In this document: positions 256 to 62,300 of the stretch, one piece after another | Position numbering within the stretch: the stretch's first letter is position 1 | How the letters are laid out: each line of letters begins with the position of its first letter | DNA from: Owenia fusiformis | Lineage: Eukaryota > Annelida > Polychaeta > Sabellida > Oweniidae | Direction of reading: 5' to 3' | NCBI GenBank assembly: GCA_903813345.2 | Contig: CAIIXF020000010.1 | Location: 26,934,425 to 26,998,424 of the forward strand | DNA: 64,000 bases | Notes under the pieces: model-generated | The model's database searches: none | Seen by the model: only the letters and a program-made list of their open reading frames with translations | Told to the model about the DNA's origin: nothing | Position numbers and translations under genes: made by a program

Positions 256-3200
256 GTACAAACCTGGTAGGGTCTTGCCTCCCCCATGATGTACCCTTTA
301 AGGAAGGATCAAGGGTCTCTGATGATGCTAAACTACAAAACCAGGTACAAGAAAGTAAAAGTGTCAAACAAGAGAAGTCAGTGTTATTATCTGGCATGCA
401 GTTGAATGATAACAAAGCTGGTATGACTGGACTGGATAAGGAGAAGATAAACAGAATTATCATGGAAGCTTCAAAAGGTATGTACAGTGCAATACACTTT
501 CCCATTATTTTGGAACCCATTGAAGCTTAGTTGACTCCCATTATTTTAGTACACATTAAAGCTATTGATTCCCATTATTTTGGAATCAATTGAATATATT
601 GACTCATTATCTGAGCTTAATTGACTCCCATTATTTTTGTACCTATTGAAGCTATTGACTCCCATTATTTTGGAACCCATTTAATATATTGAGTCATTAT
701 CTTGGAACCCATTGAATCTATTCACTCCCATTATTTTTGAACCGATTGAAATTATCGCCTCCTATGATTTTGGAATCCATTAAAGCTATTGACTCCCATT
801 ACTTTGTAACCCATTGAATCTATTGACTCCCATTATCTTTGAACCTATTGAATCAAATTGTGAACTCCTCTATGTTAAATGTAAAATGCTAAAATAGTGT
901 GTTGTGATTGCAGGCTCGTCATTCTATGAGAATGAACAGAAGAAGGAGAAGCAGATGGAAGTGAGATTGGAGGAACAGAAGAGGAAACTTGCTGCAATTC
1001 CTGCACATAAAATCCTAGAAGGAGAGAAACAGGTTAATCCCTTATTAATATATCACCTTTGAGAGACATGTTACTCTACATTGGCACTCCCATTTAAGAA
1101 AATAAGAATATCCTATGACGTGTTGTGTACCATTCTGTATGTTTAACCAGACCTGGGATCTGATAAGACTTGTTAACAATAATAGATTTTCTATTGTAAA
1201 CAATGTGTATTCTTTTTTTCCTTGCAGGCTGACAGACTTCTGTGTGAGCTGGAGTCAACTAGAGATATGAGTCATACCATTGTACATGTTGACATGGATG
1301 CATTCTACGCTGCTGTGGAGATGAGGGATGATCCAACACTCAGGGATGTCCCCATGGCTGTAGGGGGACTAGGAATGCTGGTGGGTGCAGTATTAATTTG
1401 GATATTTCACCCTTAGCAACATACAGTGTACTTGCCAAGTGCTTAAATACATTTAGAATACTGTGTTATATGAGTTCATGAATCATGCTTAGTTACTTAT
1501 ATTTGAAAGTATATTTCAGTGATGGTTCAAATTCATTTTTAAATTGAAAAAGAAACTGTTATTCTGGAACATATCTGGACGTTCATAGTGTAAAATTGCC
1601 GTGTTTGTTATTTCAGTCAACATCAAACTACCATGCTAGGAAGTTTGGAGTGAGAGCCGCAATGCCTGGGTTTATTGGCAAAAAGTTATGTCCTGATCTA
1701 GTCATAGTGCCTACTCACTTTGACAAGTACACTGAAGTGAGCAAGCAGATCAGGTCTATCATTGCAGAATATGATCCTGGATTTGCACCTATGAGTCTAG
1801 ATGAGGCCTATTTAGATATAACAGAACATTTAAACAAGCGGCAACACTTCAGCATCGAGGAGAGAACTTTCTATAAACGCCCTGATGATACAAAGTTCTG
1901 CGTGTGTAATATGAATTGTTCAAAGTACCATTGGATGAAGAGAAAGGAAAATGAAGAGATGGTTGGTGCAACACCAGTTGTTGAAGCTATGGATGAACAA
2001 AAAGAAACAAGAAATAAAGTACAGGAATCCTTGGAAGATACACATGATGTGCAAGCACCAGAATTGAACTGTTCCCCAAATTTATTTGAATCCCCAGAAG
2101 AATCTGTCAATGAACATAGTTATATTTTAAATGAGACTCAAACTAAAGGTGATAATCCCCTGGAAAACGAAACATGTGAAAACATTTGTGAAGCTAGCAT
2201 AGATAACTTGTGCCCAGTGTGTGGTAAAGCCTTGCCTGTATTGAGTGACCTGGCACCAGAGCTGTTTGGATTGACAGCTGAGGAGGCTACCAGAGAGATG
2301 AGGTTCCGTATAGAGCACCTCACCAAGCTAACAGCCAGTGCAGGTAAATTCACATTCTGTATAGAGAAACTCACCAAGCTAACAGCCAGTGCAGGTAAAT
2401 TCACATTCTGTATAGAGAAACTCACTAAATTGACAGCCAGTGCAGGTAAATTCACATTCTGTATAGAGAAACTCACCAAGCTGACAGCCAGTGCAGGTAA
2501 ATTCACATTCTGTATAGAGAAACTCACCAAGCTGACAGCCAGTGCAGGTAAATTCACATTCTGTATAGAGAAACCCACCAGGCTTACAGCCAGTGCAGGT
2601 AAATTCACATTCTGTATAGAGAAACTCATCAAATTGACAGCCAGTGCAGGTAAATTCACATTCTGTATAGAGAACACATTTACAGCCAGTGTAAGTAAAC
2701 TCACATTTTGTGAAGAGCACACCACCAAGCTTACAGTCAGGTCCTACAATTATAATACATTAGATATTATACACATATAACTGTTCAAGAATTGACTACT
2801 GTAGATACACTTTACTTGACCCTACTGAATTTGGCGGATTTGCTCAATTTTAAATATTGGCGGCTATTTAATTTGGCGGAGTCAGGACTGAGCTAAAGTT
2901 TTATCATAGATCTGGAAATAAAAATTTCAGATTTGTGTGTTCTGCTTTCAGGAAGTTTTGGTATGGTACTGGCATCCAAAAAGGAATACTTTCACAAGCA
3001 AAATACTTGCAAATTACAAATTCTTTTGAATTTCCAAAATAGATCTGAAAATTGGCAGATTTTTAATTTGGCAGAATTTTTCAATCTGCCAATCCATCAA
3101 ATTAAAGGGGTAGCCAAATTAAGTGTATCTACAGTATTCATTGGGGAAAATCATTGTGGAACACTTTTCACAATCTTATTTTTTTCTTTTTCAGGAATTG

Positions 3201-6200
3201 CATGTAACACAATGCTTGCAAAGGTGTGTAGTGACAGGAATAAGCCAAATGGGCAGTATATCATTCCTCCAAGGAAAGAAGATGTACTTCAGTTCATCGA
3301 TCAGTTACCAATCAGGAAGGTGAGGCTCACATATTTTGAAACCTTTCAAAATTGAATGAGCAACAATGTTCTCTCAATACAATATATTTATTGGCACAAA
3401 ACATGCAACTATTCTTCATAATTCCCTGTGCTTAATAGGAAATGTATAACGACTGAATACAAAAAATCATTATTTATGTTTTTGATGTTTTACAGTTTTA
3501 CTAATATTGAACATTATTATATCACTATCTAGCTAACGACAGTATGATTGGTCAAAACCGGGTCACATGTCGTGGGATATCTAGCGATATTCAATGGCAA
3601 TGCTAATCAGATAAGACAACCGTGAGATATCTAGCGATATCTCACGCTCCCGGGAATTTTCAAAGAATTTGTTTTCGTTCAGTGTAAATAATTTAGTTCA
3701 GTGTAAGTCAAAATGGCAGACGAACTGAGTAGATTCAATGTATTTCAATGTTAACCTATGACTTAATAATATTAGGGATGTTTAGCTAGATATAATAAAA
3801 CAAATATTTCACTCTATTTTCGGTGAATACCTGTAGCACTTTCACAACTTCGGGCTTCGTGGAATATCACTTGTGAAAGATGTACAGGTATTCACCTCAA
3901 TAGAGTGAAATATTTGTTCAATATCAAACAATCATGGAACCCATTTAATTTTGAATGAACTAACTGGATAGTGCCTCCCTGAAGTTGACTTTGTTTATGT
4001 GTAAATATCACATAATTAAATGTACAAATGGCCACACTACCCTACCAGGTGACCACATTTAGAAATGATACAGGGTACAGTTAAGTTGTAAATGGAGTGG
4101 GTATTCTTTATCTTTGTCCATTGGGCTTTTTTGGTAATAATACATTCCAAACTGCTCGATGAATCTATACAATGTGTAGTAGAACACTTGGAATATATTT
4201 AAAATCTAGTATACCTTCAGAACTATGGAAATAAACAAACGTTCTCCATTTGCAACTTCGCTGTAGCCTGTATTTCTTTTAAAGGAATACAGGATACAGT
4301 ATAGTCGTGTGATGATATGTGGAATTGGTAAAGTGGCCTTATAATCATTCTATTTGCAGATAAGTGGAATTGGTAAGGTGACAGAAAGAATGTTAGCTGC
4401 TTTAGAAGTTGTCAAATGTTCTGACTTGTTCACAAAAAGAGGAGTCTTGTATCAATTATTCTCTGAGATTTCCTTCCAACATTTCATGAGAATCACTCTT
4501 GGTATTGGGTCTACTGTTGTAGAAAGGTGAGTAATTTAGATTTTTCCTTATTCCAATTTAAAACATATGAATATACAATACATTGCCTGCCCAGGTTAGA
4601 AGCATTTGTGGCAGTTAAAATGTTGACATAGTTTTGTGGTTACATTCATAGGGTTCCATGACTTTGTAAGGTGTAAGACCCAGTACATTATTTCATATAG
4701 ACGTTCACAAATCCTACATATTATACAGGTAAGTATTGCACATTGTTGATGTTGTCCATTCTCTTATTGGTTTTGGTGTCATTACAGTATGTAACCTTTT
4801 TTAAATTTTCACAGGATGCATTATAATATAAAACACACACTTTATGCATTAGTAATCATCTCCTAACATGTGTTTTATGAATTATTCTTTTTTTGTTTCA
4901 GCGGAGGAAAGCGCAAGAGCATGAGTGTGGAAAGGTAATATTGCCAAAAATATTCTCTCATCACAAATTAATATGTTACCAACCATTCAAAAATAGCATG
5001 TAAAATCAATAAAAACACAATACACCAGATTAATTCAGAGAGAGTGATTTAATATAATTCAAGAGAGAAATAAAAGTGAAGGTAAATACATGCAAGAATG
5101 ATAGATAGCTTGTGGCAGTTCATGGTGATTATGACAAGTTGATTGTCAGCAGTCGTTTTTGTCTGCTGATTATATAAGATGTTCGATGAATTGTGCTTCA
5201 CCTTGGCATTGCCGTAATCTAATTATCTTACATGCTACATACACATATAATGAAGTTACAGTCAGGTCAATTATTTGTTTTTACTACAATGATCAACTGA
5301 TAGACTTCAGGGTTTATATTGCAAAATATCAACTGTGAACCTTATTATCCAGTTTTACTAATTTTAGGACATTTTCTGAGATGAGCAATGTGGAGGAGCA
5401 ATATAAAAAGTGTCAGCAGCTTTGTGAAGCACTCTCAGAAGATCTTGCGGAAGAAGGAATCAAGGTGAGTTCTCATTCTATTTACACAAAAACTGAGTGG
5501 TTCATAGGCTTGTGATGTCTGTAGTAGACCTGTTTAGCCTCAACTTTAACTGATATAATGAAAATTTATAATTTTCTTAATATGCCAGCCATTTTTATAT
5601 CACCATCAAAAGTGACATGTTGTTTATAGTCTCCAAGTTCTTTGGATGTTGTTCGGCATCTATAACAAATGGCAGGTGGTGATATTTTGCATATTATGCC
5701 TTGTCTAGTTTGTAATGACCATATTTCTGATATGTTTACTTTTAGGGTAAGACCATCACACTAAAGATCAAAACAGTGAAGTTTGAAGTCAGAACCAGGG
5801 CCCAGTCTGTCCTCAACTATACCTCCAATAAAGATCAGATCTACAAAGTGGCACGGGACTTGTTGAGACACGAGATGGTCACATGTGATCCTGAGCCACT
5901 AAGACTTCGCTTGATGGGTGAGTCAACATTCATCTTACATTCTGAATGGAATGTGAACAGAGTTACAGTTACACATTACACATAACCAATATGTATACTG
6001 TGATAGGATATATGATGCTAATCACCCCCTCCTCCCCATGGGTGCAGCTTTGAAAGTATCTTTACCTTGAATTATACCATGGGAATTTACTCTGAGGGAG
6101 TCTCAGTATGGAAAAATCTGGTACCCAATATCATACTGCACATTTATTTTTTTTAAATTAACGTAAGTGACTTATATTCAACATCAGTGATCTGCATCTG

Positions 6201-8974: not shown

Positions 8975-11900
8975 ATGCAGAAAAATATTTTTAGGTTCAG
9001 ATTGTCTTTGTTGTGCATGTTTTGTTGTGCACAATTACTTTTTATAAATGGAAAAATTGTCGAAATTGAAAACGGAAAAATCAAAGGGCGTGAGACAAAT
9101 ATAGGTCCGTGGCATAAAAACAAAACTGTGGACGCTTTTCTTGGGGTACCATTTGCTCAGCCACCAGTAGGACCTCTGAGGTTTAAGGTAAGACTCCTAA
9201 GCCATGTGTTCGCTACACTAATAACGTGCTGTTGGTCCAGCTTTAATAATAGACAACTGAACTGGGATTTGCAACATTGATATGATTCAAAGAAACTTTT
9301 AATCAATATGTTGATATCAAGCCTGCATTTGGCGATGTTAAACTGTTACCGCCACACGAAAAAATACGTTCTTTTTTTCACCAGTGTCGCCAGATAAGCA
9401 TATGGATGTTTTTAAATGTTGCCGTTTGTGCGTTCTCGTGGTAAATGCCTGAAATGATTAATAAATGTATTTCAGAACCCAGAGCCTGTTAAGAAATGGT
9501 CACAAGAAGTATACGACGCTACTTATTATAGGCCATCATGCCCCACCAATATATTTGGCGTGCTGAGTATGTGGGTATCAGTACCTGGGTACGACAAGTT
9601 TGATGAAGATTGCCTCTACTTGAACATATATGCCCCAAATGTAAGTCAGAAATTAAAGGTGGATAACATCTGCACTTCCCCCCCCCCCCCGAAGTGTGAA
9701 AACTTATTTTCTCCATTAGATCACATATAATTCAAGGGTGTCTAGTGTGTTTGATAGTTTATGTTTTTGACATTTCTCATTAAAAAACAGCCTTCCAAAT
9801 TCATCATAATTAGATAATGTGTATCAGATTGAAGATAGCAAATTTTCAGGTTTTCACGTGAAATTCAAGTTTTATACATGGTTTAACATAGCGACCAGTT
9901 GATCAGTTCTTTTGTAGTTATTACTTCAAGCCACTTGTCTAAGCAACTAGATAGCCCTAGATCCATTTTGGTATGAAAATAGGACAAATCTAATGAATCC
10001 AATTTCTTTAATTTTGTTAATCATGGAAATACAAAAGGAAAATACAAAGTGACTGCTGAAGGAAAACACCCCAACAGATAAAATAATGGGTATGCATGGT
10101 GCCTATCATTGCAGGTGACCGACGGTAGATTGTACCCAGTAATGGTATGGATACATGGTGGAGGGTACGCCAATGGAGGGACCATCAAATACCCTGGCCA
10201 CTACTACGCAGATAAAGAAGTTGTTATGGTGACAATGTCCTACAGACTTGGTGTTTTAGGTACTAGTAATTAATAAATTGTGACAATAACCTACGAATGG
10301 AGTTGAAGTGATGACTATTGACTTGATTTTTTTTTTTTTTTTTTTTTTTTATAAAATCAAACTTTATTAATAAACATATTTTACATTACATGCATACAAT
10401 AAGATAAAATACAATTATAGAAATTTCAAGTTACATTACATCTTTCTGATCATTATTTCATTATCAAAAATAGCTTTTACATTACTAGCTGTATTGACCC
10501 TTTTTTTAAAATCATGTATAGCTTTTTTAATTACCAATGTTTTAAGTAAATCTTCTTTTTTAACAATTGCATTTCCAATTCTTTGATCATTTGTAACATT
10601 TACATCATCCCAAATTGATTTAATACAGTCACAATTGATAAAGAAGTGGTCAATGTCATCTTTTACATGTGCGTTACAAAAGTTACAGATGTCAGAGTTT
10701 TCAATGTTACATTTCTTCAAATAAATATTTTGAGGGTAAATACCATGTAAAATTTTCCATTGAATTACCAAAAGGGTAGTATCGGTTGTACATTCAAAAA
10801 ATTGAGACCAGACTTTATCGTTTAGAATCTCACCATTAAATTTTATGTCACACCTTCTCTCTAAAACAATTTTTGTTCTCACAATTCTTGTGTTTAAAAG
10901 ATGGCTCTCAATGCCTTTAAAAAATAATTTTGTACAAGGTGTTTCCATTTCATATTTGATAAGGAGATCTTGTGTTAAACATGCTTTAAGTGCATTATAT
11001 TGAAGAATTGTTTGGCCATTTCTCCCTATTTTCTGGACAATGTTATCATATGCTAACATTTCCCTATCCTGGACAACATCTGAAATATATGTAATGCCCT
11101 TTTCAATCCAGTTTTCAAAAAATAATGGAGAATTATTGAGAGTTACACTTTCATTGTTCCAAATAATGCTCTCATTTTTAAAATCATTGTGTTTTAACCA
11201 TACATGTAATACATTTTTATAAAAATTACTCAAGTTATGCAAACCTTTAATTCTATCAAAATCTATGTTTGAATTAAAAATACTGAGTCCATTACCCATT
11301 TTTCCATACATGTACATGGGTAAGCCTCTCCAGTGACCATTGCCTCTTTCTTGCAACTTTTTAACCCATTGTGTTGTATAAGCTATTTGTAAATCTTTAG
11401 CATTTATCATTTTTAACCCTCCATATTTATATTCTTGTACCATTACATCCCTTTTCACTTTGTCAGGAATCTTTTTCAATTCATCCTCTTTAAATCTGCC
11501 TTTTGCCCAAATAAATTTAAACATCATTGTATTAATTCTATTCAAAAGTTTGTCAGGTAGAATGAAGGCTTGCATGAGATAGGAAAATTGTGATAAAAGT
11601 AAAGATTTCACTATAACAACCTTTCCCATAATTGTTAAGTACCTTCCAGACCACGATTTCATAATGTTTTCACATTTTACAAATTTTGACTCAAAATTCA
11701 AGTCATTATCAATAACATGAGTTGAGGTACTAAACGTTACACCTAACAGCTTTATACAGTTATGAGGCATTATTTTCCATTGCACATCTCCATGTTTTTC
11801 TCTCCTATTTTTCCATTTTCCTAACCACATTGCCTCTGTTTTCTTTGTGTTGATTTTAAGGCTTGATAATCCATAAAATGTGTTAAAAATTTCAAGTACA

Positions 11901-14900
11901 TTATTAAAAGACTTAATGTCATGCACAAAAACAGTTGTGTCATCTGCATATTGTAAAACTTTGGTTTCATCATGATTTCCAGGGGCTTTGATACCTTTAA
12001 CCTCACTGGATTGTCTTAGTTTACAAGATAAAAGCTCACATGCTATTAGGTAAATCATCGGAGATAAGGGGCAGCCCTGCCGAATGCCACGCCCTAATTT
12101 GATGTCACCTATAAGCCAGCCATTGTTAAAAATATGATTATGTCCATTTGTATTAATGACCTCAATCCATTTTATAAATTGGGGACCAAATCCAAAATAT
12201 TCTAAAGAGTATAACATGAACTCCTTTGAGATTGAATCAAAACATTTTTCGTAATCAATTGCAAGCATAATGCCCTGTAGGTTATTTGAATCTATATATA
12301 CCATTAAATCATCAATACCTCTTAAAATAGTAGCTGCACTACGTTTCTTTATAAATCCTGACTGGTCTTCATGTACTATTTCAGATATGACCAATCTCAA
12401 TCTGTTAGCTAACACTTTGGCCAGTATTTTGTAGTCTACATTTGTTAATGTTAAAGGGCGCCAGTTTTTAAGGTCATCCCTAGGTAAATCTTTTTTTGGA
12501 ATTAAAACCATCAATCCAGTTTTTTGAGAACATGATAATTCACCTTTTAGAAAACCCTCATTCAGTGACTCTACGACTAAATTGCCAATCTTATTAAAAA
12601 ATACCTTATAGAAAGCAGCTGTAATACCATCCAGTCCAGGGCTGGCTTCATTTTTCATATTTTTCAATGCTGCTGTACATTCCTGGTGTGTTACAAGTCC
12701 TTCACAAATTAATCTATTTTCATCATTAAGTTTCGGAATATTTACATCATGTAAAAAATCATCAAGATTTGCTTTCCTAAATACAATTTTCTTTTCATAT
12801 AATGCATTATAAAACCTGTTTATTTCTTCTACAATCTGGTTCTGGTTACTTACATTTTGACCATTAATTTTCAATGAATTTATGTTCTTTTTATTTCCCC
12901 TAGCTTTCTCTAATTGCAAGAAGTATTTGGTACTTTTTTCCCCTTGTTCATACCACTGTACCTTGGACCTTATCTGAGCCCCTTTAGCTTCAACTGTTGA
13001 CAAAATTTCAAATAACAATTTGCATTCATTAACTCTCTGATTCAAAATATTATCATTAGGATTTTTACTTAAAACCTTACATGCTTGATCTAACTTCTGT
13101 TTTGCAGTTTTGATTTTACACTTATTTACATGGGCTAGATGTTTACTATAACCAATAGAGAAATCTTTAATCTGTGTTTTACAATAATCCCAGAGTATTT
13201 GTTTATCTAGATTGTTAACATTAATTAATACCCTGTCAACAATTTGGTTTATTTCATTTACATAAGTTTGGTCAGTGAGTAAGCTATTGTTTAACTTCCA
13301 GTAGGAAGGACCCTTCTCATTTTTATCCCATGTTACAGTAGTAGTAACACCTCTATGGTCAGATGTTGGCATATCTGTAATATTGGAGCACATAATTTTA
13401 TCAAATACACAATCATTAGAAAAAATATAATCAATACGCCTCATAATGCTTTTACTTTTATGCTTCCAAGTGTAGCTTTTTTCATTAATGTTATACAATC
13501 GCCATACATCATTCAAATCATTATTCTCAACAAATTGTTTAAAAGCGTAAATATCATTTTTGTTGTGACTTTCTCCAGCTAAGTTATCATTTTTCTCATT
13601 CAACACACAGTTAAAATCACCACAAATTATTAAATTCATATCATCTTTATTAACATTTTTAACGACATTCTGAATTTCTTGATAGAATATAACCTTATCC
13701 TTTGATTTGTTCGGTGCATAAATGCAACCAACCACGAACACCTCATTCTCATACGTGAATTCCACAAATAAAAGTCTGTCTTGTTTTACAATAACCTGTA
13801 TATCTTCAATTCCACAATGTTTATCTATTAATATTATTTCTCCCTTACTGTGCTTGGTTCCGGGGTTTGCAAATATTTTGCCTCCCCATTCTTTTGCCCA
13901 TGTATCTATATCATTTTGTGTTATATATGATTCCTGCAAGCAGGCAATGTCCATTTTAGCATTTTTAAGATATCTAAAAAATGCATGTCGCGTCATCCTA
14001 TTCCGAAGTCCTTGTACATTTCCTTGGTATATGTTAAGCATAGAGTGTTTATATTATCTATTGGTATATCATGCTTAGTCCTTGTCATCTGGCGCTGCAT
14101 TTATGATCTCACTCTGTATAATTGCTGAGTTGTTCACTGGTGAAATAGAACCTAGTTTGTGTTTCTTATCTTCATTTGGGTCAATAGGGGGGCTTGCTGC
14201 TGACCTCTTCAGGTTAAAGTTAGGCAGAGAACCTGACTTCTTAAGAGGATTCATAACTTGTCTTTTTCTTGCTTTTACTGCAGCGGTACCTGGTTTTGTG
14301 AATTGTGGTTTCACGTTGTTAGGTGCTGCTGCTGATACTGCCTGAGTCCCGGATGTAGAGGGTTCTGGTTTACTCATATTATTAGCCGCATCCTTTGGGG
14401 CTGGATCAGTGGGTTGTTGTGGGCCTAACTCAGTCGCAACCTGTGCAGATTCAGGGCAGTCAATTTGGCGATGCCCTACGATGCCACATTTCCAACAGGT
14501 GGTGTCGCGCTTCTTACTCCTTGGACACTCAGATTTCCTGTGGCCCTGGATGCCACATCCGAAGCAGGTTATAACAGATCGAGAGGGACACTGCTGTGTA
14601 TCATGGTCCTTACGACATATACGACAGTTGATCGGTTGATTATCATGGTATATCACAATGTTTACATCAATCAGCGACCCATCTAATGGGTCAGCCATAG
14701 AGTAGGTTGTGTATCGATTCTGTGGTGAAGTAATGTTCTTGGCGTAACAAAATCTATGTCCTGTTAACAGCCCATTTGTTTGGTCTTTCGGGCCTCTTGA
14801 ACGTTTGTGCCATTGCACTTCAGATGCCCGTTCAGCAAATGTATTTACCCATGCTTCAATCTCCTGGTTTGACACATGAAGGGGGATACCATGAATCGAA

Positions 14901-17900
14901 ATGCGTGTGTGTTTTCTGTGTTTGTATTCGAGAGATTCCTTTTCCATTTTGAAGTCGCTCAGGCCATATTGCCTATTATTTACAGTTGCATAACCCATTG
15001 AGACAAGGTTAAGCTTTGTAGCTTGGGAGTCAGTGTAGATGATATATGCATTCTGGTAAAGTTGTATTCCAAGAATGTTATTTACACTGATTTTTCCACT
15101 GCCCAAGTTTAGTTCACAGCTTTTTAAGATTGCATCTCTCAAATCCAGTTCAGTTATTCTACCAATGCCTTTCGACTCCAGTTTGATCCATAAATCAATA
15201 TCACTCACTTTATCTTGAATATCCATAATTGCGTATTTGAGATGGTCCCTAAGCTATATTGCTCAGCACTAGTCTTACTGTACTGTGAATTGCTAACTAG
15301 GTCACCACTGTTCAATACAGGTAAGGCTAATCACTGACTCTATACATGAACAATAGAGCCAGCATATAAAAGCACATATAAAAATGTCAGCTCAAAAATA
15401 ATACAGCAGTGCAGGAAAAGTTTAGATTGATATTCACCTTTATCCACACTGTATGTCCTCACAAAATTCGCACAATGCGGCCACTGACTATTTATAAACA
15501 ATATCCTACAGTTATATCCTATATAGTCAATATATTTCATGAGAATTTTGCACTATTTTGAAGACAGATCTTTCCTACATATTTTCCTCCTTAGGGGGTC
15601 ATCTCATCTCAACTATTGACTTGATACAATTACACTATATACCATGTCAGATCACAATCTATTTTTTACGATGTATAAAACATAATGATGTTGCAGTTTT
15701 AATGTTTGCAGTTTTAAAAACCCAGACACGCATGTATTTGATATTTCAGTGCCTATCCTGGTATACTAGATCAAGAGTCAATTGTATATGTTTGATCTTA
15801 TGAATACCTACTTTCCTATGGATTTCAGGATTTCTTTCAACACTTGATGATTCTGCAAGGGGTAATTTTGGTATGTACGATCAACTAGCTGCACTCAAAT
15901 TCGTTCAAAAGAATATCCGGGCATTTGGAGGAGACCCGGATCAAGTAACCTTATTTGGGCAAAGTGCTGGGGCGTCAGCCGTTGGACTGCACATGCTGTC
16001 ACCAAAATCTGAAGGCTATTTCCAAAAGTCCATTGCAATGAGCGGGTCAGACTTATGTGGATGGGGCTACAATGATCCTGAAGTTGATGATGTGTTGAGA
16101 TATGCAACACAGCTTGCTGAGCTACAAAACTGCACGACAGAGACTACTCAGGCCATGGTGGAGTGCTTGCGTGGCGTGGATTTTGAAAGCCTCATTGCAG
16201 ACGCTGGAAGCGTCAGTCCGGTACGCGATAATTACGATAAATTATATTGTAGGCCATATTGAAATTGCATAATAAGCTAGATACTCGGTAGAATGGACAC
16301 ACAAGATGCCTATTGTAAAATATGACAGCAACGTGAAATCTAACGTCATTAATGTTATATTGCAGAAGAGTGGTGACCCTGCTGTTCTGTTTCCATGGGT
16401 CCCAGTCGTGGATGGAGAAGGAGGCTTCCTCCCAGACACCCCAAAACGTCTCAGGGAAAGAGGACAATTTAAGAAGATCCCTACGATGGCAGGCGTTACC
16501 TCACACGAATCGTCAATTTGTAAATATTACAAATTATTCTATATTCTGATATTACACGATACGTCTTTCTGAAATTGAATAATGATGCACGTGATTGCAC
16601 CTCGATCAGAATAACTACACTAAATTTTATTAACGTAGCACCAACTAGAGAGTGACATGTGTTGAAACCAGTCTAGCTAATCAAAACGCATGCTAACGTT
16701 TCCTTTTTTACAATACTAATATTTTTGTCTGAAAAATTGAAATCCCAGATCAAATATAGTTCGATTTAGTATGCAGAAATGCCTTGTTTGCAGTTGACCT
16801 TACAATTTCCTCTTCCGCATACTCCGTTCGTTTCCTGCAAAAACCACTATCTATTATCTGGATACGACTTTTTGAAGCGTATTTACAAATCTTTGAATTA
16901 GCTATTTACATCCAATTGATTGATTCACAAATGCAAAAGCATGAGTTCAAAAGCATGAAAAGCGCACCATACAGGTAAACCCTAACATCTCTCCCCTAAT
17001 ATTTCTTTTTCTTACTTCTTCAGTAGTGGCACCGCTCCTTCATAAATGCAAACACATGAGTTCAAAATCTAAAATACAGGTTAACCCTGACATACTTTTC
17101 TTACTTCTTCAGTATTGGCACCGCTCCTTCATAAATGCAAAAGCATGAGTTCAAAATCTGAAAATACACGTTAACCCTAACTTCTTACTTCTCCAGTATT
17201 GGCACCGCTCCTTCCATTCGGCGCAGACATCAATGACACAAAGACGGTAGCAAGACTTGCTGCTGATCTGTTTGGCAGAAACAAAGAGAGGTCCTACGAT
17301 GCTATGATGATGGAATATACTAACTGGGAAAACATTGAGGATAAGAGACAAAGCAGACAGTTGCTTGTAGAGGTACAGTTCGTCATTCTAATCGGGGTTT
17401 CGATGTTCGAAAATATGAGGTAGTTTAATGTATCTGAGCCCGAACCAAACTTGAAAGTTTTTCCAATATGTTGTTATTGAACAATCAGGATTAGTAATTG
17501 GGATGACACCGTACAAGTCCATTTCTCAATCAAGTGGTACCCCACAAGTGACATGAAATAAATACCATAAGTACTTATAAATACCATATTATCATTGAGA
17601 TAAGGTACTTCCATTTCATTTTGCATTCAATATCTCTTTTTATTCCATAGTTAGCATGATATTCATAGGATAACATGTGAAAATAAAAACGGTATTTTTG
17701 TAATCAGTGGTAAAATATGATATTTTTGACAATTTTTCACTTAACCATAGCCATAGCATACGGTTTTTTAGCCATGACATACGAGGTCGTATGCGATGGT
17801 TTATGGATTTTTGCTACTTCAGACTCAAAACGAGGCTAAGTGTCAACATCGCCGGATCGTTTGGAAAATTCGAATTAAATGACTTAATTTCCGACGATTC

Positions 17901-28000: not shown

Positions 28001-31000
28001 TGGTTTTGCTAAAGAACGCTCCCAGAGAAACTGGACAACTCAAGGAGCTGTCCAAACGAGTGGCATTTCTCAAGAAAACACATTACGGGTAAGTACTGTA
28101 TGTTTATCAGCAACTGTTGTGGAAACAAAATAAATACAACGTCTGAATAATTGCACCAACAGATGGTCGGTAGAAACATCTGTATTGATGTGTAAATAAA
28201 CATAAGTCTTACAACTTGATAATATTCCCTAGCTCAAAAAAGTATTCACCTGGTTGTATCAGGTAACACAGTACTCATATTCATATTGCGAGATTAATCT
28301 CCATATAGATAAGATGACACCCATTGGTCACATCTCTATATCTCATCTGATTGCTGTGGTACACCGCGTATATTATAGTTTAGTAACCGGGATTATAAAA
28401 CAAATTTGATTAAATAGTACTTTCATAAATAGGGGGCAAATTTGATAATTCCCATATTAGTCAAAATTTATTAAGATGGGCTTTTAGTCTCATATGACCA
28501 ATGTCAACATTTGAACCGACTGTCAAGTCATTTTCCTGTTATGTACAAAAACATATTCGATATTTTGATAACCAACTAGAATACTAGCAAATGCAAATTA
28601 TATCTCATCCTCTTTATCTTATTGTTTTGTTACGCCCAGAATGATAAGATAAAATTTAAAGTCAAACAACATAAAGGTAATTTCATATTTTCGTCTTCCA
28701 GAGAGACATTCACGGTCAAGAGTAAACGAGATCCAAACAATTTGGCTTACACAGGGCTTAAGCTGGGCTTGCACGTAGATTTGCCATTTTACAGCTTTGC
28801 CCCTGGGGTAATGTATGCCTTGCCAATTGATCCATATATCAGACCTCAGATCAGACTAAACACGTACATGCATTTCATATTTGTCGATTAAGTAAGCTAC
28901 AATTGCATCATAATGTAGAAACCATATGGTAGATGCCGTTAAATGGCGCTCGAGTTATTAATCTAGAGATAGCAGAAAAGGTTTAACATGGATCTAAGAA
29001 CTAATTCAAAAGTTATGTTTTCAGATTCAGATGCTCCACTGCATAGAACAATATGAGGGTGAAGGAGGAGAGAACGATTTCAGCGATGGTTTCTACGTCG
29101 CCCAGCTTACAAAGGAGAGGGCCCCTGAGGAATACAAGACTCTTGAAACGACCCCTATAGATTTCTGGGATGTGGGAGAAGATATGTATAAGTTTAGCAA
29201 GGTCCTACCAGTTTGTACGTTCGAGTAAGTCTTTTGTTAAATACCTGTACCATTTTTTAAGTACCTGTATTTTTAAAATCCAAAATTCTTATAAATTTTG
29301 AGGAAGGTGGAATAGAAAGGTTTCTTCATGGGTTTCCGATTGGGCAGTCATAAACTTAATCTCACTGATTAATGGGAGATTTTGCGCACTTTTCAGTGTT
29401 CGTTAGCTGAATAAAATTTTGTTTGACACCAAAAACACTACAAAATTTCCATCCTGATGCCGAAATTGCCATAACGAGTTAACCTATTTATTCAAAAGTA
29501 TTTTAAAATCACCTTTTCTTATTTATTGCCAAAGTTCAATGGGTTCCTAACTGGAATCTCATGACATGCTAATTCCAGCTACGTACATGTATAACTCATT
29601 CCATACCTGGTCTATATCTTTTGATTTTGCACAAAGAGATCATGAAAATATTAGATTACTAGTTGAAGGTTGATCATTATCTACGATGTATGAAAATTCA
29701 TGAAATTATGTGACCTACTTTTAAAAAGTAGAAAGAAGTTTTTCCACCAATTCTCTATATATTAAGCACCAACAAAGAGGGGGAGTTGGAGAGGATTAAC
29801 TTTAACCAGCAAGTACGAGACTCTTATATGAACATCCCCGTAGAGCAGGTGAGGCCCTTCTACACAGCCATGAAAAACTTCAATGACGCTCTCTACAACA
29901 ATTCTATCAGGATTAAAATGGAACCAGGTATCTATTAGATTCACATATCTGTTTCTCTTCCAAGGGTCAAACTTTCGTTTGATCTTACAGTAACAACGGT
30001 AAATGATACAGAAAACACACATTAGTCATTTGGAAGACAATACACAATTGGATTTTGTTGAATATAACTGATATTGGAATCGATGTACTCCGACTCCTAG
30101 AAACTCTACATTAAATATAACAGTACTTTGGAAATAGCTTACGTGTCCCGGGAGTCCAGTATACAACATTACGATTTTGGCATTCGGTTTGATTTGGGAA
30201 AGTGCAGTCTTAAACATACTAAATCTAGTTTGATTTTCAATCAATATGATAACTTTATACCTTGGTAATCCAAGATGGTCTTGACATCAATATGAGGGGC
30301 AACGGGCGTAACATTGGCAACATAGTATTGCCAAACAAAAAGGTACTGAAAAAGATCATGTGCAGTATGGCAAGTAATTTTAGACGGTCATATCTTTCAC
30401 CATGAGTCTTGATTAAAACAATATGCTTTTCTTTCAAGTGAAGTACCCATAATGATAAAAAATATCAATCGAACAGTTCGAAAAATTTATGAATAGGGAC
30501 CCCATGTCAACATTCTTTTCAAAATATTGAACCTATTTACTCAAAAGAGGATCTCCCTTTTCTGATTTTTATTGCATGAAAAGATTATTTAACAAGGGGT
30601 CTAAAACATCTTCAAAAATAGAATGGTATTGAAAGTCTGGTTTTGAAGATATCAATTTTCGATGACCAAAATTATGCTAAAAACAATGGATAGCACGAGT
30701 TTTCCCCTATATGGGAAAATAACATGGGATATGTGTTTTTTAACTTTAACGCATTTCAATACCCATCTCCTTTGCAGAAATTGTTAATACAATGTAGAGG
30801 AAACTTTTTATATGTTTAAATTGAGAAAAACAAGATCCTCTTTTTAGGAAATAAGCCTAACATTTTTTTGTGCCAAGGTGGGGCCCCAATCCATAATTTT
30901 TCAGAGAGTTGGATTGATATTTTAGTATCACGGGGACTTCACTTGAAAGAAAACATATTGTTTTAAAAACAACCACTGTATTTATACCCAGAAAATACTC

Positions 31001-41320: not shown

Positions 41321-44300
41321 ATGCCGCTAAAAGTGGAATTAAAAGATGACGCTGGGATGCTTCTAGTGCAGTCTCCAGGGGAGGATGAGCTGCTCTTCCC
41401 TTACGTATGGCTGAGAGATAACTGCCAATGTAGCAAATGTTTCCATCCAGTCTCACTGGCCAGATTGTTGCTGCTAGCAGACCTCAAACTTGATGACAAA
41501 CCCCAACACGTAGAGGTGAGAAACACAATAATCATGAAAAGGTATTATTTACAACTTATGATATATTTATTGAGGACTGTTTAATAATTACTATGATATC
41601 CATATATATGTAAGCACGTAATGGTAATGCCTTTGAATTACCCGAATGCGAGTAGGTAGTTACCAGTTTCACCACCAAGTGGCTGATTCGGGTCAATTAA
41701 CATGGCAGGTATAAGAAAGTTCCCTTAAACTTGAATATTATCAATTTAAGTGGCTCAATTTTCATATAACCCTTATGTGTCTGATACTTATACTAATGAA
41801 AATATGTCTAGTTAAGCAAAATATTATCTGTCCACTAAAAGAAAAGATATTTCATTTTTGTGATTTTATAGCATCTATGGGAAAAATTGTAAATAGGGAC
41901 CCCACGTAAACAATTTTTTTCAAAATGTTGAACTTATGTTGCTCAAAAGAGGATCTTCTTTTCTGATTTTTATTGCATGAAAACATTATTCAACAAGGGG
42001 TCTAAAACATCTTCAAAAGTAGAATGGTATTGAAAGTCTAGTTTTGAGGACATCAATTTTTTCGATGACCAAAATCATGCTGAAAACAATGGATAGAATG
42101 AGTTTTCTCTATGGGAAAATAACATGGGAAATGTGGTTTTTAACTTTATCGCATTTCAATACCCATCCCCTTTTCAGAAGTTATTAATATAGTGTAGAAG
42201 AAACTTTTGAGACATTTAAATTGAGAAAGATTCTCTTTTTTAAAAAATAAGCCTTACATTTTTTTAAAAAGTGACAAGGTGGGGTCCTTATCCATAATTT
42301 TTCAGAGAGTGGGGTTGATATTTTATTATCATGGGGACTTCACTTGAAAGAAAACACATTGTTTTAATAAAAACCACTGTATTTATACCCAGAAAATACT
42401 CATGGTGAAAGATATGACCGTCTAAAATCACTTGCCATACTGCACATGTTCCTTTCCTCTTCAACAGAGGTTGTAAATCCTTGTGCAATACCTTGCTTCT
42501 GCAGGCATAGTAGGTTAAATGTAATCCTCACGATATTTTTAGAAATTGAAATGAGATTTCATTTCTCTTTTATTTTCATTTTAGCCTCACTTAATTCTGT
42601 TTAATCTTTTCAGCTTGAAAATAATGGTGAGATTGTGTACCTTGTATGGTCTGATGGTCACCGCAGTCCCTATCCAGTATCCTGGCTAAAGGAAAGAGCC
42701 TTCACGGAGTCAGTGAGGCAGAAACGGAGCAAGGTATATCGCAGGACCAAGAAGCTTTGGGGCTCTGAATTCAAGGACATACTACCCAAATTCGACTTTG
42801 AAAAGGTATTAAACTATAATGTCGTTGAAAAACATTTCACTGTGCCCAGGCGCATGCGATGGTTTGAGCTGTTGTGGACCACTTGCATCAAATGCCCATG
42901 ATATGACTTATATGAATAAACATCATATTACCATTTATAATCCGGCTTTTTCAAATAGTTTCAATTCTCGCACATGTTTCAATATACTGTTTTACATTAC
43001 AGGTGCAGAAAGATGACAAAGAACTTTACAAATGGATGAAAAACCTTGAAGAATATGGTTTTGTCTTGCTAAGGAATGCTGCAAGAGAAACTGGACAAGT
43101 CAAAAAGATGGGTGAACGAGTGGCATATCTAAAGAATACTCATTATGGGTAAGCAGACCTAATGGTGTGTGGTATGGTATATTGGTTGTTCATCTCAACA
43201 GAGCGTATTGCCGTATATATCTCTATCAAAGAGAAAATGTCAGAAATATAAATATTTGATAAAAGTTATGGACATTTTTGACCAAATAAAAATCAACATT
43301 TTTTTGGAACCTGGATATTGATTCGGTGACCTGATTTTGCCCATCGACTACGAGTAAAGAAAAAGAAACTGGTGACCTCGATTTCACACTTTACAAAAAC
43401 GTACATCTACCCTATAACCTTTGCATTCGTTCGACTTCACTTCTTAAAAGAGAGCTTCGTCTTCAGTTTATAACTAGACTCTGCGCGCAGAGTATCTGCC
43501 CAACTGTCAAACGCATTCTCACCTGTTTCCAAAATCACAGAGTTTATTGGAAGTAGTTGCTTGGAGTTAAATGCATTTGTTTTCAGGGAGACATTCACCG
43601 TTCAGAGTAAACAAGATCCAAACAATTTAGCCTACACCGGGCTAAAACTGGGCTTACACACAGATTTGCCGTATTACCACTACGGCCCAGGGGTAATGCC
43701 ATTTTCCTGCCATATTCTAAACGGTGCAACTTGGGTAAACGTGTACAACTTGTCAAAGAAAGTTTAGATAAGGGAGAATGAAAATTTTATGCATACACAT
43801 GGGTCCCTTAACAATAGAATGTGATCCGTCCTCAACTCTCTAAATCCGCTCATCAGATCTAAATGGATCAATTTACCTTGCATTGTGTGAAGCACACTTA
43901 CTAATATCCCAGTCAATTCTTGAAACTCAGAAATGACCAAACTGACCGGGTATGAACTTTAGCGTACATATATTACAGCAATTGCTAATTTCATATTCTA
44001 CATGGAAACATCTTTCCAATGATATACCAAGTATAACGAAATTCATACGTTTCATACGAATGCAAAAATTGATTCAAAAGTTCAATGTTTTTTGCAGATT
44101 CAGATGCTTCACTGCATAGAACAATATGAGGGTGAAGGAGGAGAGAACGATTTCAGCGATGGTTTCTACGTCGCCCAGCTTACAAAGGAGAGGGCCCCTG
44201 AGGAATACAAAACTCTTGAAACGACCCCTATAGATTTCTGGGATGTGGGAGAAGATGTAATTAAGTTCCACAAGGTTATCCCAATTTATATGTTCGGGTT

Positions 44301-56300: not shown

Positions 56301-59300
56301 GCAGCTGGGGACAAAAATGCCGCTGGAAGTAGGGACTCTGTTGAAGAGAATAATGTACCATCAGAAAGGGATTTGTGTTATGCTTTGAATGGAACAAGTT
56401 TGAAGAAAAACGGTGCAGTATGAATGGTCGAAGCTAGGACCGCGTGATAATACTTCATCTCGATATAGTGATCATCTCTTAATATAATACAGGTTAGAAT
56501 ATTGAAAACTGAATACCTCTGTTATCACTTACTCAAACATCATGAAAAACATTCTACATTATAAAAGTAGTTTTTAACATATTACCAAACGTAAGGCATC
56601 AGCCCAATGGTGACCAGAGATGAGTGTTTCAATTGCTTCTTCACAGTCACCTGCATATTGTTCAAACAAAATGGCCGCCTCATCCATACGTTTTGCATCC
56701 TTAAGTTGCTCTGCAATTACAATATATTCAACAGCAATCGGGATACACTGATAGTTCGCATAGTTAATGCTCAAACTGAAATGCCAGTATCTAACCCATA
56801 TGGAAGAATCACATTGTCAGCAGAGATGTAAACATTTGATAAGGTACACTACATCAGCATTCCAAATTCTAAATCCAAGTTCAACCTACACGTATTTAAA
56901 TTTAGTTTTCAGTTGGTTGAGACTAATATTAGCATTCTTTAAAAAATTTGCCTTAAAAAAGATAGTGTGACACATAAAATTTAATCAAAATAAATTCAAC
57001 ATTTTCCTCATTAAAAGGCCTTCAAAAACAACCTGGACGGACAAGTTTCGCATATCACATTTTGATAATATAGGGCAAGAGGACTAAACAAGCCAAAGAT
57101 GTTTAACTTACATGGCTCATTTCATATCAGTCCTGTTAATTTCAATTACCTGCCAGTTTCCTACTTTCTTCCACAATTTCCTTTTCGCTGTAATTGGCCT
57201 CAGCCATAATACAAAGTATGGCTTGCCAATTCAAACATTTCTCATTTGAAGCTATTGCACTGTCATACTGCTCTGCCTTGTAGAAGTATATTGCAGCTTC
57301 CTCGTGGCATTTTTCCTGCTTCAAGTGATCCCCAAATGCATAGGAGATCTCCTAATAAAAGAACCAAATCATTTCCCATTTTATTTTACAAATATCAGAT
57401 TAATACAGTGAATATGTATCATTAATAATTTAATATACATAAAGCAGTGGCGGATCCAGGAACCAACAAGAGGGGGGCCCAAATTTGAGTCAGAGAAAAA
57501 AACCTCCGCGGCTTGCGCGAAAAAAAATTTTGGGCCCCTAAAACCGAAAAGTGGGCCCAAATTATGAAAATTTGAGGCCCATTTTCTTCAAAATTTGGCC
57601 TAAAACTAAAAAATAAGGCCTTAGATAGGCCTTATAATGACCAAAAGGCCCACTTTTTGGGGCCTTTAGGCCTTTTTTGGCCTAAAATTTTTTTGGAGCC
57701 CAACTTTTTTTTTTCTGGGCCAACCTTAGGGGGGGGGGCGGGGCCCGGGCCCCATGGGCCCCCCCCCGGATCCGCCATAGTAAAGCTTAGCTTGTACAAT
57801 ACAATATACCTTTTGATTAACACTTAACTTTATACTTTATTAAACAAAGGAATTTGTATGTTAGAGAACCCTTTAGCATTTCTTGCTCTTAGTGAACTTA
57901 TGGGTTTATATGCATTTATTACTGTAATGATGTGAAAAGAGAATCTCTGTAAAGGGTTTGATGAAGTACAATTTATTAACCTTATACTGATGAGAAGCCA
58001 CAGGATAGTACTTCAAGGCTTCTTTAAATAGCTTCCTCTCAGTGATGAGGCTCATACATTCCGTGAACCTCTCCTCTCCACATTCTACTAAGTGTTGCAA
58101 AGCCTCTGGGTAGCGCTTCAGGTGCATGTCTATGCTGTAACGCATATAGCGAGACTCCATCGCTCGCAGCTTGTTCAAGAATGGCAGGTATTCTTTTGGA
58201 TCCTAGAACAAGAGAAGTCCTTCAGATATTTGCCATAGCCTATGTACATAGTCAGCACCATCTATTTAATATCTAACATAATATAATGAAGTTCGGAAAA
58301 AAGAAAATTCAAAATAATTTTTTATATATTAGAATAGAATTAACAGCATAGAACTGAGTTTATCTTTTTATAATTAACTGCTACATCCTTAAAGGAATAA
58401 CTAGTATTTGAGTTATCACCTAGGCATTAACAGAGACACAGACAAATAGTCAAACTTTGTTTGATAATTTACATGGCCCCTAACCAGAAGCAACACTCTT
58501 ATAAACACACAAATTGGAATTCTCACCTTTTGAGATTTCTCTGCCACCATAATAACTAGATCAAAGTCGTAGGTCCCCAGGGCAACAAGGTACATTTCAT
58601 TGACATCTACTAGGAACAGCAGGTACTTGAGGGCTTCTTCTGGGCTGACAACTCCTGTGCCTTTCTCATCTACAGCATAGGAGTATACACATTATGAACA
58701 TTATCATTTGGACCATACACATTATGAACATTATCATTTGGACCATACACATTATGAACATTATCATTTGGACCATACACATTATGAACATTATCATTTG
58801 GACCATACACATTATGAACATTATCATTTGGACCATACACATTTTGAACATTATCATTTTTTTTCCTCTTCAATGCCACCTCTAGTTTAGTTTAGGTTTA
58901 GTTAGAATATGATATAAACAATAATCTACCTCGAAGTTCTTTTATTTTCTTCAGTGCCACCTCTAATTCAGGTTTAGTCTTGCGGACATGTGCAGTCAAG
59001 ATGCACAACAGATACCTGGAAACAAAACTAGATATGTAACATTTATTGACATAAAAAAAATTGACATAAGGTTTTGAATTGACTCAGTGACTGCATTATG
59101 TTATGTGCTAATTCTTGATTTCAAATTGTAAAGCAAATGAATTAAAGCAATACATTCTGGATATTGTGTAATACATTGCATAATACTCACTTGTCAGCAT
59201 CTTTTTCTTCCAGAACTTTCCTGATTGCATCACACGCAATATCTTTCTTGTTTGAGAGGTTCTTCTTCAAGGGAGAACGCTCCTCATATGCTGCTGTGTA

Positions 59301-62300
59301 CATTGTCACAGTGACATCCTCCTCTCTACATTAAGAACAAGCAAATGAAAATGAATAGTAAAAAGATTTAGATTACTCATGATTACTAGGTACCAATAAC
59401 TGGATGGATAAGAATACATTGCAGACCTACAAAAGTCACACATATCATTTTTCACATTGAGAAAATGAAATTTTTATCACTTCAACATTTCTGTCATCAT
59501 TATTTAGAATACAAAGTATGGACATCCATATGTACTTTGTTACATATTGTCGTGAGAATGATTGCCTTAAGAATTGTACTTGAGCGGTACCACAGATAAT
59601 GCCGTCTCAATAAGGACTTAATAATAATATAAGCTAAATAAGCTAGTGCACCTCGAACATGCCAGGCACTCAATTCAAAATTGGACTATTCAGACATCTC
59701 ATTGGAGTTAATGTGGAATATTCATGAAAACCAAACAAAGTTGCTGGGGTTTAGTCACATACTTCATTGGCCAAATGTAATTTAAGCAAAATCAGCATGT
59801 TTAAAGTCGTATATTAGTGCCATTCAAATAAAAGAAAGTTTTACTCACTGTAGATCAGTGAGGAAGAGATTTATATCAGTGATGTCCGCAATCTGTTCAA
59901 TAAACTCAGCTACATTATCCAGGAACACCTCAGGATTATGGTCAAAAAGAAGATTCAAGTTGATCCGATGTTTCTTCATTGTAGTGAAAGCCTTCTTAAA
60001 CTGCAATCTGAAAAGAACAATAACAATACTAGAAAACAGCAACTCCATAAAGTAGCAAATCCACCTAACAAAACATGTTTTGATAAATAGCAGCCACCTT
60101 GAATATTCATTTGCCCACCCTGTACATATCTTCACGCGATTCATTTCCTGATTATCTCATTAAAACTATTGAATATATAGAATATCTCTTACTTATCTAT
60201 GTGTCGTCTAATAGCAGATAATATAAGTGCCCTGGGGTGGATTGTCTCAAGATTGCCCCGGGGTAGCTGTAAGACAACCTTAGTTTCATCCCTGACAACT
60301 GTCACGATTCTAGCTCCACGTTCAATTCTACGTATACTCTCATCAAATGGATGAGATTTCCCATCAGAAAGCTGGGGAAGAACTGAAACATGATTAAAGG
60401 GAGAACATGGGTTTTAGAGGACATAATAGACGTTCATTACCTTTTGCATCTGATCGTCCTTAAAGGTGACATCAATTTTTGTTTAAATAAATGGAAATAA
60501 CCTCACTTATATCTGTTAGCAACTTTTAAATCAAGTTTGAAGTTGAAATTGAAAAGAGGTCGATTTTTCATTTTAAGATTCACTTGGATACGTATGAAGA
60601 ACAGATGTCAGAACTGCATATGTTTCAAAAGATGGTAAGCTCGCTAATTTCCTACATATACATCTACACATGTATGGGAATATTTTGGAAGAAGTATTTA
60701 CCTGCTAATTTTGTCTTTCTACATATACATCTACGTGTATGCGCATGTTTTGTAAGAAATATTTACCTGCTAATTTTGTCTTTCTACATATACATCTACA
60801 TGTATGCGCATGTTTTGTAAGAAATATTTACCTGCTAATTTTGTCTTTCTACATATACATCTACATGTATGCGCATGTTTTGTAAGAAATATTTACCTGC
60901 TAATTTTGTCTTTCTACATATACATCTACGTGTATGCGCATGTTTTGTAAGAAATATTTACCTGCTAATTTTGTCTTTCTACATATACATCTACATGTAT
61001 GCGCATGTTTTGTAAGAAATATTTACCTGCTAATTTTGTCTTTCTACATATACATCTACATGTATGCGCATGTGTTGTGAGAAGTAAATAATCATCATGA
61101 ACTGCAAATGATGTACAATTTGTGGCAATCTGAAATGGAAATTGTTTGATTTTACATAATTTGTGAGAAGAAGAGTAAATAGGTGAAATACTTGGCACAA
61201 TATTTACCAATGTTCCAATATACAGATTTATCTATTTAAACCATTCCATTGCAGTCAGGTAGTAAAATGCTTAAAACAGATATGAAATGGTATTTTTAAC
61301 CTAAAGGAATCAATATAATTTTTTGATAAATATATTTTGACATGTTTTCTCATCAGTAGTGTGAAAATTATTGCACTCTAATGATCGTTATAGCTGCTTA
61401 ATAAGCAATATTCGAATTGGTTGTGACGTTATTGGCCCCCACGTGCTGTCTCTCTGGTCCCCACATGGCCTGTTTTGGTCCATTAAATCATGACGTTATA
61501 ATGCCAAAATGTTTTGTTATTTGTTTACACAACAATCCTATGGTTGCCATGACGTTGTGATTACTAAGGAACCAATAAACCAAAGCTATATTTTGTATAT
61601 GACGTTACTAATCACGTGGGGGCCAATTTGATTGATCAGTTAGTTTTATTTCGTTATCTATGACCATTAGCAGTTATCTAACATTTATTTTATAATGGCT
61701 ATCGCAAGAACTCTACGTTGGACTTACAATGGAGAAACCGAATTTTTGTAGCTGCAAGTTGAGAAAAGCTATTTCAGTTGTCCTTTAACAACTAAATGTT
61801 ATGCCATTAATCTTTGGGAAAAAACCAAAAGCAAGACATGAATTAACTTTTTAAGGAAATTTCAAATACTAAGGTGCAAGCTTAAGGTCATTAATCCAAA
61901 CCATGTACTTCTCTGTCTGGGACTTACCTCAATATCATTAACATAGAACCTGTACCTCTCTGTAAGACCAACTACAACATCCTGGAATGACATGAAATAA
62001 GAGAACAGTAAAAGTATTCCATTCGCAAGCCTAAAAAACTCCTCAAAACTCCCAGAATAAGCCATTAAGTTCCTAGGAATTATGTTGATTTTATGCAGTG
62101 TATACCTGGACTTAGAAATCATTGCTCACTGATTTTGAAGGTCAATTTCACTGTGTGCATGGTTGCCCAACATACACCAAAACTTAAAATATCATGTTAT
62201 CCACTTGTATATGTAAAAAGGGAAATATGACATTTTTAGTAGAATTCTTTTAGCAATCATATACATGTGCATGCATTTACACAGCATAAAGAAAACTGAC

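Follow-up and report, generated by a model that had tools for sequence, protein, structure and literature searches.

In the POLK gene of Owenia fusiformis, one coding exon runs out into a 51-bp tandem repeat whose intact units each bring a copy of the exon's 5' splice site, and this array is probably a donor-seeded minisatellite in which the first donor is mainly used and the rest are passengers. It appears to be one case of a class of donor-seeded minisatellites that recurs in this genome, on essential genes among others, with another case at ELP1 in the same window (the whole stretch of 64,000 nucleotides that was analysed, C10:26934425-26998424).

The donor array of POLK

The following features were observed at the POLK exon end:
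1617..2343, + strand: POLK exon ending at donor 1 (exon 4 of the original prediction), from the open frame, the IMS match and the human POLK alignment
2304..2674, + strand: 51-bp tandem array of 7.3 copies, from TRF and unit dissection
2340..2349, + strand: donor 1, GCAG|GTAAAT, whose join matches canonical POLK
2391..2655, + strand: donors 2 to 7, the same as donor 1 from -4 to +6
2661..2751, + strand: two degenerate units, with the frame still open and the donors changed
3195..3319, + strand: next POLK exon (IACNTMLAK...), with a phase 1 join, from alignment

A 51-bp repeat at this exon end had been predicted at 2308-2740, an interval that spans nearly all of the array, and the repeat was confirmed by TRF (period 51 bp, 94% matches) and by word search. 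Each unit consists of ~40 nt of exon end and 11 nt of intron start, and the predicted presence of an identical GCAG|GTAAAT donor in each of seven units was borne out: on the window's + strand the exact string GCAGGTAAAT has seven copies, every one of them inside the array. The last exon bases of the donors are 2343, 2394, 2445, 2496, 2547, 2598 and 2649, at a spacing of 51 bp, and an open frame of 410 codons extends from 1548 through all units to a stop at 2778-2780; as also predicted, all seven donors keep the reading frame into the exon at 3195 and the unit reads as 17 residues. The seven donors do not differ between -4 and +6, so that no local feature sets donor 1 ahead of the others. The first degenerate unit has its donor altered to AGT|GTAAGT, with U1 pairing about equal to that of the array donors (-8.8 versus -8.5 kcal/mol); by reading of the frame, splicing there would not keep phase with the exon that follows, which makes it a possible eighth, frame-breaking donor. 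RNA folding of the array was unremarkable (z = -0.97). Among the distinct substitutions between units, 5 of 8 were synonymous against 2.75 expected (P = 0.074), an excess that is not significant, and coding constraint is not clear.

The spliced POLK protein matches the IMS family with 146.5 bits (Pfam), and the donor-1 join gives a gapless alignment through ASAG|IA to human Pol kappa (1t94); the IMS domain and this gap-free junction together identify the gene as POLK. A genome search with the IMS family gave seven matches among the best candidates, two of them in the POLK locus, and since the other five share just 24-48% identity with the window POLK in aligned pieces, no second POLK copy or retrocopy exposing the spliced form was seen among these listed matches. 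A separate 34-bp minisatellite lies in an upstream POLK intron (500-854), beginning ~25 bp past the donor of that intron and excluding it.

It is very improbable that the array is an assembly artefact, as its units carry distinct substitutions, comparable arrays occur at many loci, and in the 498-Mb, 525-contig genome the array matches one place, its own locus, in a search that skips very common words. Highly improbable too is stepwise removal, in which the AG|GT of each unit would allow 51-nt stretches to be taken out by recursive or AGGT-type splicing, leaving the same mRNA as donor 1: GCAG|GT is present in 7/7 units, but the unit has no apparent polypyrimidine tract, an intron of 51 nt would be very short for an animal, and such removal is superfluous for explaining the POLK product. 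A further point in its favour is that duplication of AGGT in tandem has been reviewed as a way in which introns are gained (PMC3443670).

The ELP1 array and other features of the window

A second donor array was observed in the window, as follows:
60652..61083, - strand: array of 65-bp units with six GCAG|GTAAAT at the end of an ELP1 exon, from TRF and word search
61027..61129, - strand: ELP1 exon ending at donor 1, from the ORF, Pfam and unit dissection

The six copies of GCAG|GTAAAT on the - strand of the window are confined to this array, with last exon bases at 61027, 60962, 60897, 60832, 60767 and 60702, and the exon was identified by the Pfam families Beta-prop_ELP1_2nd and A-sol_ELP1. 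The 65-bp unit is not a multiple of three; past donor 1 a stop is reached after 59 nt, ahead of donor 2 at 65, and any later donor reads the stop, whereas the donor-1 join fits the profile with 61 residues on 61 positions. Since this stop precedes donor 2, a functional ELP1 would have to be spliced at the first of its six identical donors. An ELP1 intron also holds a 30-bp array (58685-58859, - strand; 5.8 copies, 99% matches), which stops ~15 bp short of the apparent acceptor (CTATGCTGTAG|ATGAG) and leaves little polypyrimidine tract.

Elsewhere in the window, two long ORFs of 1205 and 392 aa lie at 10436-15253 on the - strand within a + strand gene; the ORFs are a putative LINE-type retrotransposon and the enclosing gene is presumably carboxylesterase-like. 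The ORFs 28580-28891 and 43474-43767 have RETFTVKSKRDPNNLAYTGLKLGLH in common, with small changes, and are possibly a partial duplication of one gene, presumably dioxygenase-like.

Donor arrays across the genome

Pattern searches with three donor-like words at set spacing yielded a first sample of at least 25 distinct arrays, POLK and ELP1 included, of which the other 23 were retrieved and examined. In 18 of the 25, inspection of ORFs and unit boundaries by eye pointed to a plausible coding frame that stops at the first donor; L012, with two plausible frames, was left out of the frame counts, reducing these to 17. Two new words gave a second sample of at least 10 arrays; nine were examined and seven of them lie at coding exon ends, four of the seven with a Pfam match. 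Altogether 24 of the 34 examined arrays, POLK and ELP1 counted, appear to begin at a coding exon end. Homology reaches the donor-1 exon in 11/34, all within the 24, and for the remaining 13 the frame comes from ORFs judged by eye alone. The homology-backed arrays are POLK; ELP1; Muted-like (L009); fn3 (L016); FAD_binding_4 (L021); Pirin (L024); MFS (L030); SSF (L049); AAA/VPS4 (L051); dynein-lid (L053); and CDC20/Fizzy (L055), where the Pfam scores of fn3, MFS and CDC20/Fizzy are under Pfam's cut-off and the CDC20-like exon is backed by a PDB match (E = 2.5e-17). Three arrays illustrate the range:
C4:18209600-18211800: CDC20-like exon end (L055), 58-bp array, stop 11 nt past donor 1
C3:22610300-22612400: VPS4-like exon end (L051), 45-bp array, in frame, open for 221 nt
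C1:439700-445200: Tetraspanin exon end (L008), 54-bp array with 17 donors, in frame, open for 996 nt

The last of these is the longest in-frame open array seen among those examined, and its match to Tetraspanin (Pfam) is that of the exon set as a whole. Among the likely cases the donor word occurs between 3 and 39 times per array, the Pirin-like array having 39 exact copies. Pfam gave no match at donor 1 for L011, L052, L054, L056 and L027, neither a Pfam nor a PDB match for the L025 exon, and just weak coiled-coil matches, below the cut-off, for L017. L020 and L022 were rejected as homology-backed, their matches sitting upstream of most of the donor-1 exon; L010 and L029, the latter with a 994-aa ORF ending at donor 1, were left out of the homology search. 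No convincing exon was found in L013, L014, L015, L018, L019, L023 and L026 of the first sample or in L048 and L050 of the second.

Donor words are unevenly enriched in arrays, in most searches but not all. Triple hits of donor versus reversed words were 1131/534, 20/0, 31/51 (the opposite direction) and 31/23, and in further searches 201/149, 355/46 and 17/0; pairs numbered 1644/1016 and single words 33,163/47,644, the triple-hit and pair counts being overlapping hits rather than arrays. At the array level, 6 in 11.98 Mb for the donor words compare with 17 in 89.64 Mb for the reversed words (P = 0.046, or P = 0.011 when scaled by word frequency), that is, ~7.5 versus 2.0 arrays per 1000 word occurrences, a comparison of small numbers against an impure control, AGGTGAGT being present in one control array (L035) at least. 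The longest frame that stays open up to the first word has a median of 47 aa in the 23 donor arrays outside the window and 21 aa in the 17 control arrays (P = 0.034), and donor arrays also differ in it from random positions (P = 0.005). Within the window 13 separate minisatellite arrays were counted (TRF, merged by hand), and the genome is minisatellite-rich; as real donors are exon-linked and minisatellites abundant, random seeding together with tolerance may suffice for the enrichment.

Probable usage of the first donor

Donor-1 joins, which alone were scored, were tested in six genes, POLK, ELP1 and four others, and the match runs across the join in 6/6. With the donor-1 join the score rises from 27 to 75.1 bits for FAD_binding_4 (L021); from 20 to 81.8 bits for Pirin_C (L024), where the query also adds a third exon; from no match to 25.9 bits for MFS_1 (L030); and from no match to 20.6 bits for fn3 (L016), the last two remaining below Pfam's cut-off. 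In 15 of the 24 framed arrays a stop is reached no more than one unit past donor 1, and four more shift the frame by their main unit length (L010, L030, L052 and L053). Only five are in frame and open beyond two units, namely L008, L011, POLK, L051 and L056; some donor spacings vary within L030 and L056. Given the stops past donor 1, splicing of CDC20- and ELP1-like genes must be capable of taking the first donor although many identical ones follow, and the frame and stop pattern of the 24 arrays is as expected if the first donor alone matters. As POLK belongs to the five open arrays, the stop argument does not apply to it directly, and that POLK itself mainly uses donor 1 we infer from its sister arrays. 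The unit is divisible by three in 9/24 framed arrays (P = 0.67 against one third) and in 5/11 homology-backed arrays, and since 9/24 is the chance level, 51 bp as 17 codons needs no explanation by selection.

These observations bear on the original prediction, which had raised the POLK array as a possible dosage or dominant-negative switch: the donors would compete, giving POLK with 0 to 6 extra 17-residue units, with the long forms inactive and copy number tuning the dosage. Its description of identical in-frame donors holds, as does the point that extra units would split the conserved Y-family motif, but the special switch is not supported, because unrelated genes carry like arrays and most of those examined are unable to make a useful ladder. 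Seven identical in-frame donors in an open frame, the weak synonymous excess between units and the report that more repeats in the CBS boundary VNTR lower enzyme activity (as given in PMC5188458) speak for such a ladder of isoforms; against it stand the chance-level divisibility by three across the sister arrays and the two other open arrays that were tested, L008 and L011, which show no sign of coding constraint between units (no synonymous bias, P = 0.41 and P = 0.87, respectively). The evolved switch is accordingly an unlikely account; from the stops in the sister arrays and the chance-level divisibility, the in-frame donors of POLK are probably passengers. A weak, low-level POLK ladder is nevertheless possible from the sequence, as the identical in-frame donors could leak and both the CBS precedent and the synonymous excess point that way.

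Rules for competing donors often favour the intron-proximal one, and among donors of equal strength it tends to be preferred in vitro, so that the last POLK donor might be thought to dominate and normal POLK to carry six extra units. This is scarcely credible, as 102 residues would interrupt a motif whose alignment with human Pol kappa has no gap, and ELP1 and the CDC20-like protein would be cut short if splicing there made the same choice. The rules for competing donors are reported to depend on SR and hnRNP proteins in the portion of the work consulted (PMC5585400).

Under the preferred reading of a donor-seeded minisatellite, a segment made up of the final ~40 nt of exon and the first ~11 nt of intron would have been duplicated in tandem and so have seeded the array at the POLK 5' splice site, and the minisatellite would afterwards have expanded into the intron. 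The spliceosome would mainly take the 5'-most donor, giving normal POLK, and the six further donors would leave with the intron as passengers; co-transcriptional first-come choice and exon definition are candidates for how donor 1 wins. As they leave the coding exon and its first donor unaltered, such minisatellites would be tolerated, and the unit of whole codons would be a one-in-three coincidence. A wider reading is put forward tentatively and with doubt: a strict first-donor rule, covering dozens of identical downstream donors, might have let minisatellites grow on donors genome-wide, essential genes included, while an open minority (POLK, VPS4-like, tetraspanin and two others) might leak graded ladders set by copy number.

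Significance and comparison with known systems

Taken by itself the POLK array is of modest weight, and the array class with the first-donor constraint that it implies is of more interest. Donor choice among identical donors is usually studied in engineered minigenes, and in this genome roughly two dozen of the examined arrays are likely to be natural instances. In many array genes later donors cannot give a working protein; in the in-frame POLK, VPS4-like and tetraspanin arrays, leakage would appear as protein isoforms and not as broken messages. Gene models at donor-array exon ends may be wrong in such genomes. Neither a genome-wide class of donor arrays nor a precedent for an in-frame open boundary array was found in the literature searched, most subscription journals lying outside its coverage.

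Several known systems resemble the POLK array in part. Subtle tandem splice sites of the TassDB class are likewise alternative sites of one intron, but these are described as 2-12 nt apart (in the accessible text of PMC2878309), whereas the POLK donors are 51 nt apart and so fall outside that class. The AGGT route of intron gain shares tandem copies each holding AGGT (in the section of PMC3443670 available); in POLK, the duplicated piece spans an existing exon-intron boundary and no new intron is needed, so that the array is not an exonic duplicate becoming a new intron. Intronic minisatellites are described in the available part of an earthworm metallothionein paper and are without donor copies there (PMC12783039). 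The CBS 844ins68 variant is, like the POLK array, a tandem duplication of a splice boundary, and one copy is reported to be strongly favoured with normal mRNA being made (PMC2630376, in part). The nearest relative by anatomy is the human CBS 31-bp VNTR, c.1444_1467+7(16_21), present in 16-21 copies (PMC2630376, in part): by its name the unit comprises 24 nt of exon end and 7 nt of intron start (same source, in part), and as that name spans the exon-intron boundary each CBS copy should carry a donor. The POLK unit likewise contains both exon end and intron start, with a donor in each of seven units and the two degenerate units differing, and going by the CBS name the anatomy of the POLK array is thus of a known kind. 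The CBS VNTR has a unit of 31 bp, not a multiple of three, and is a human polymorphism in one gene, whereas the POLK unit consists of 17 open codons and has similar arrays at other loci of the genome.
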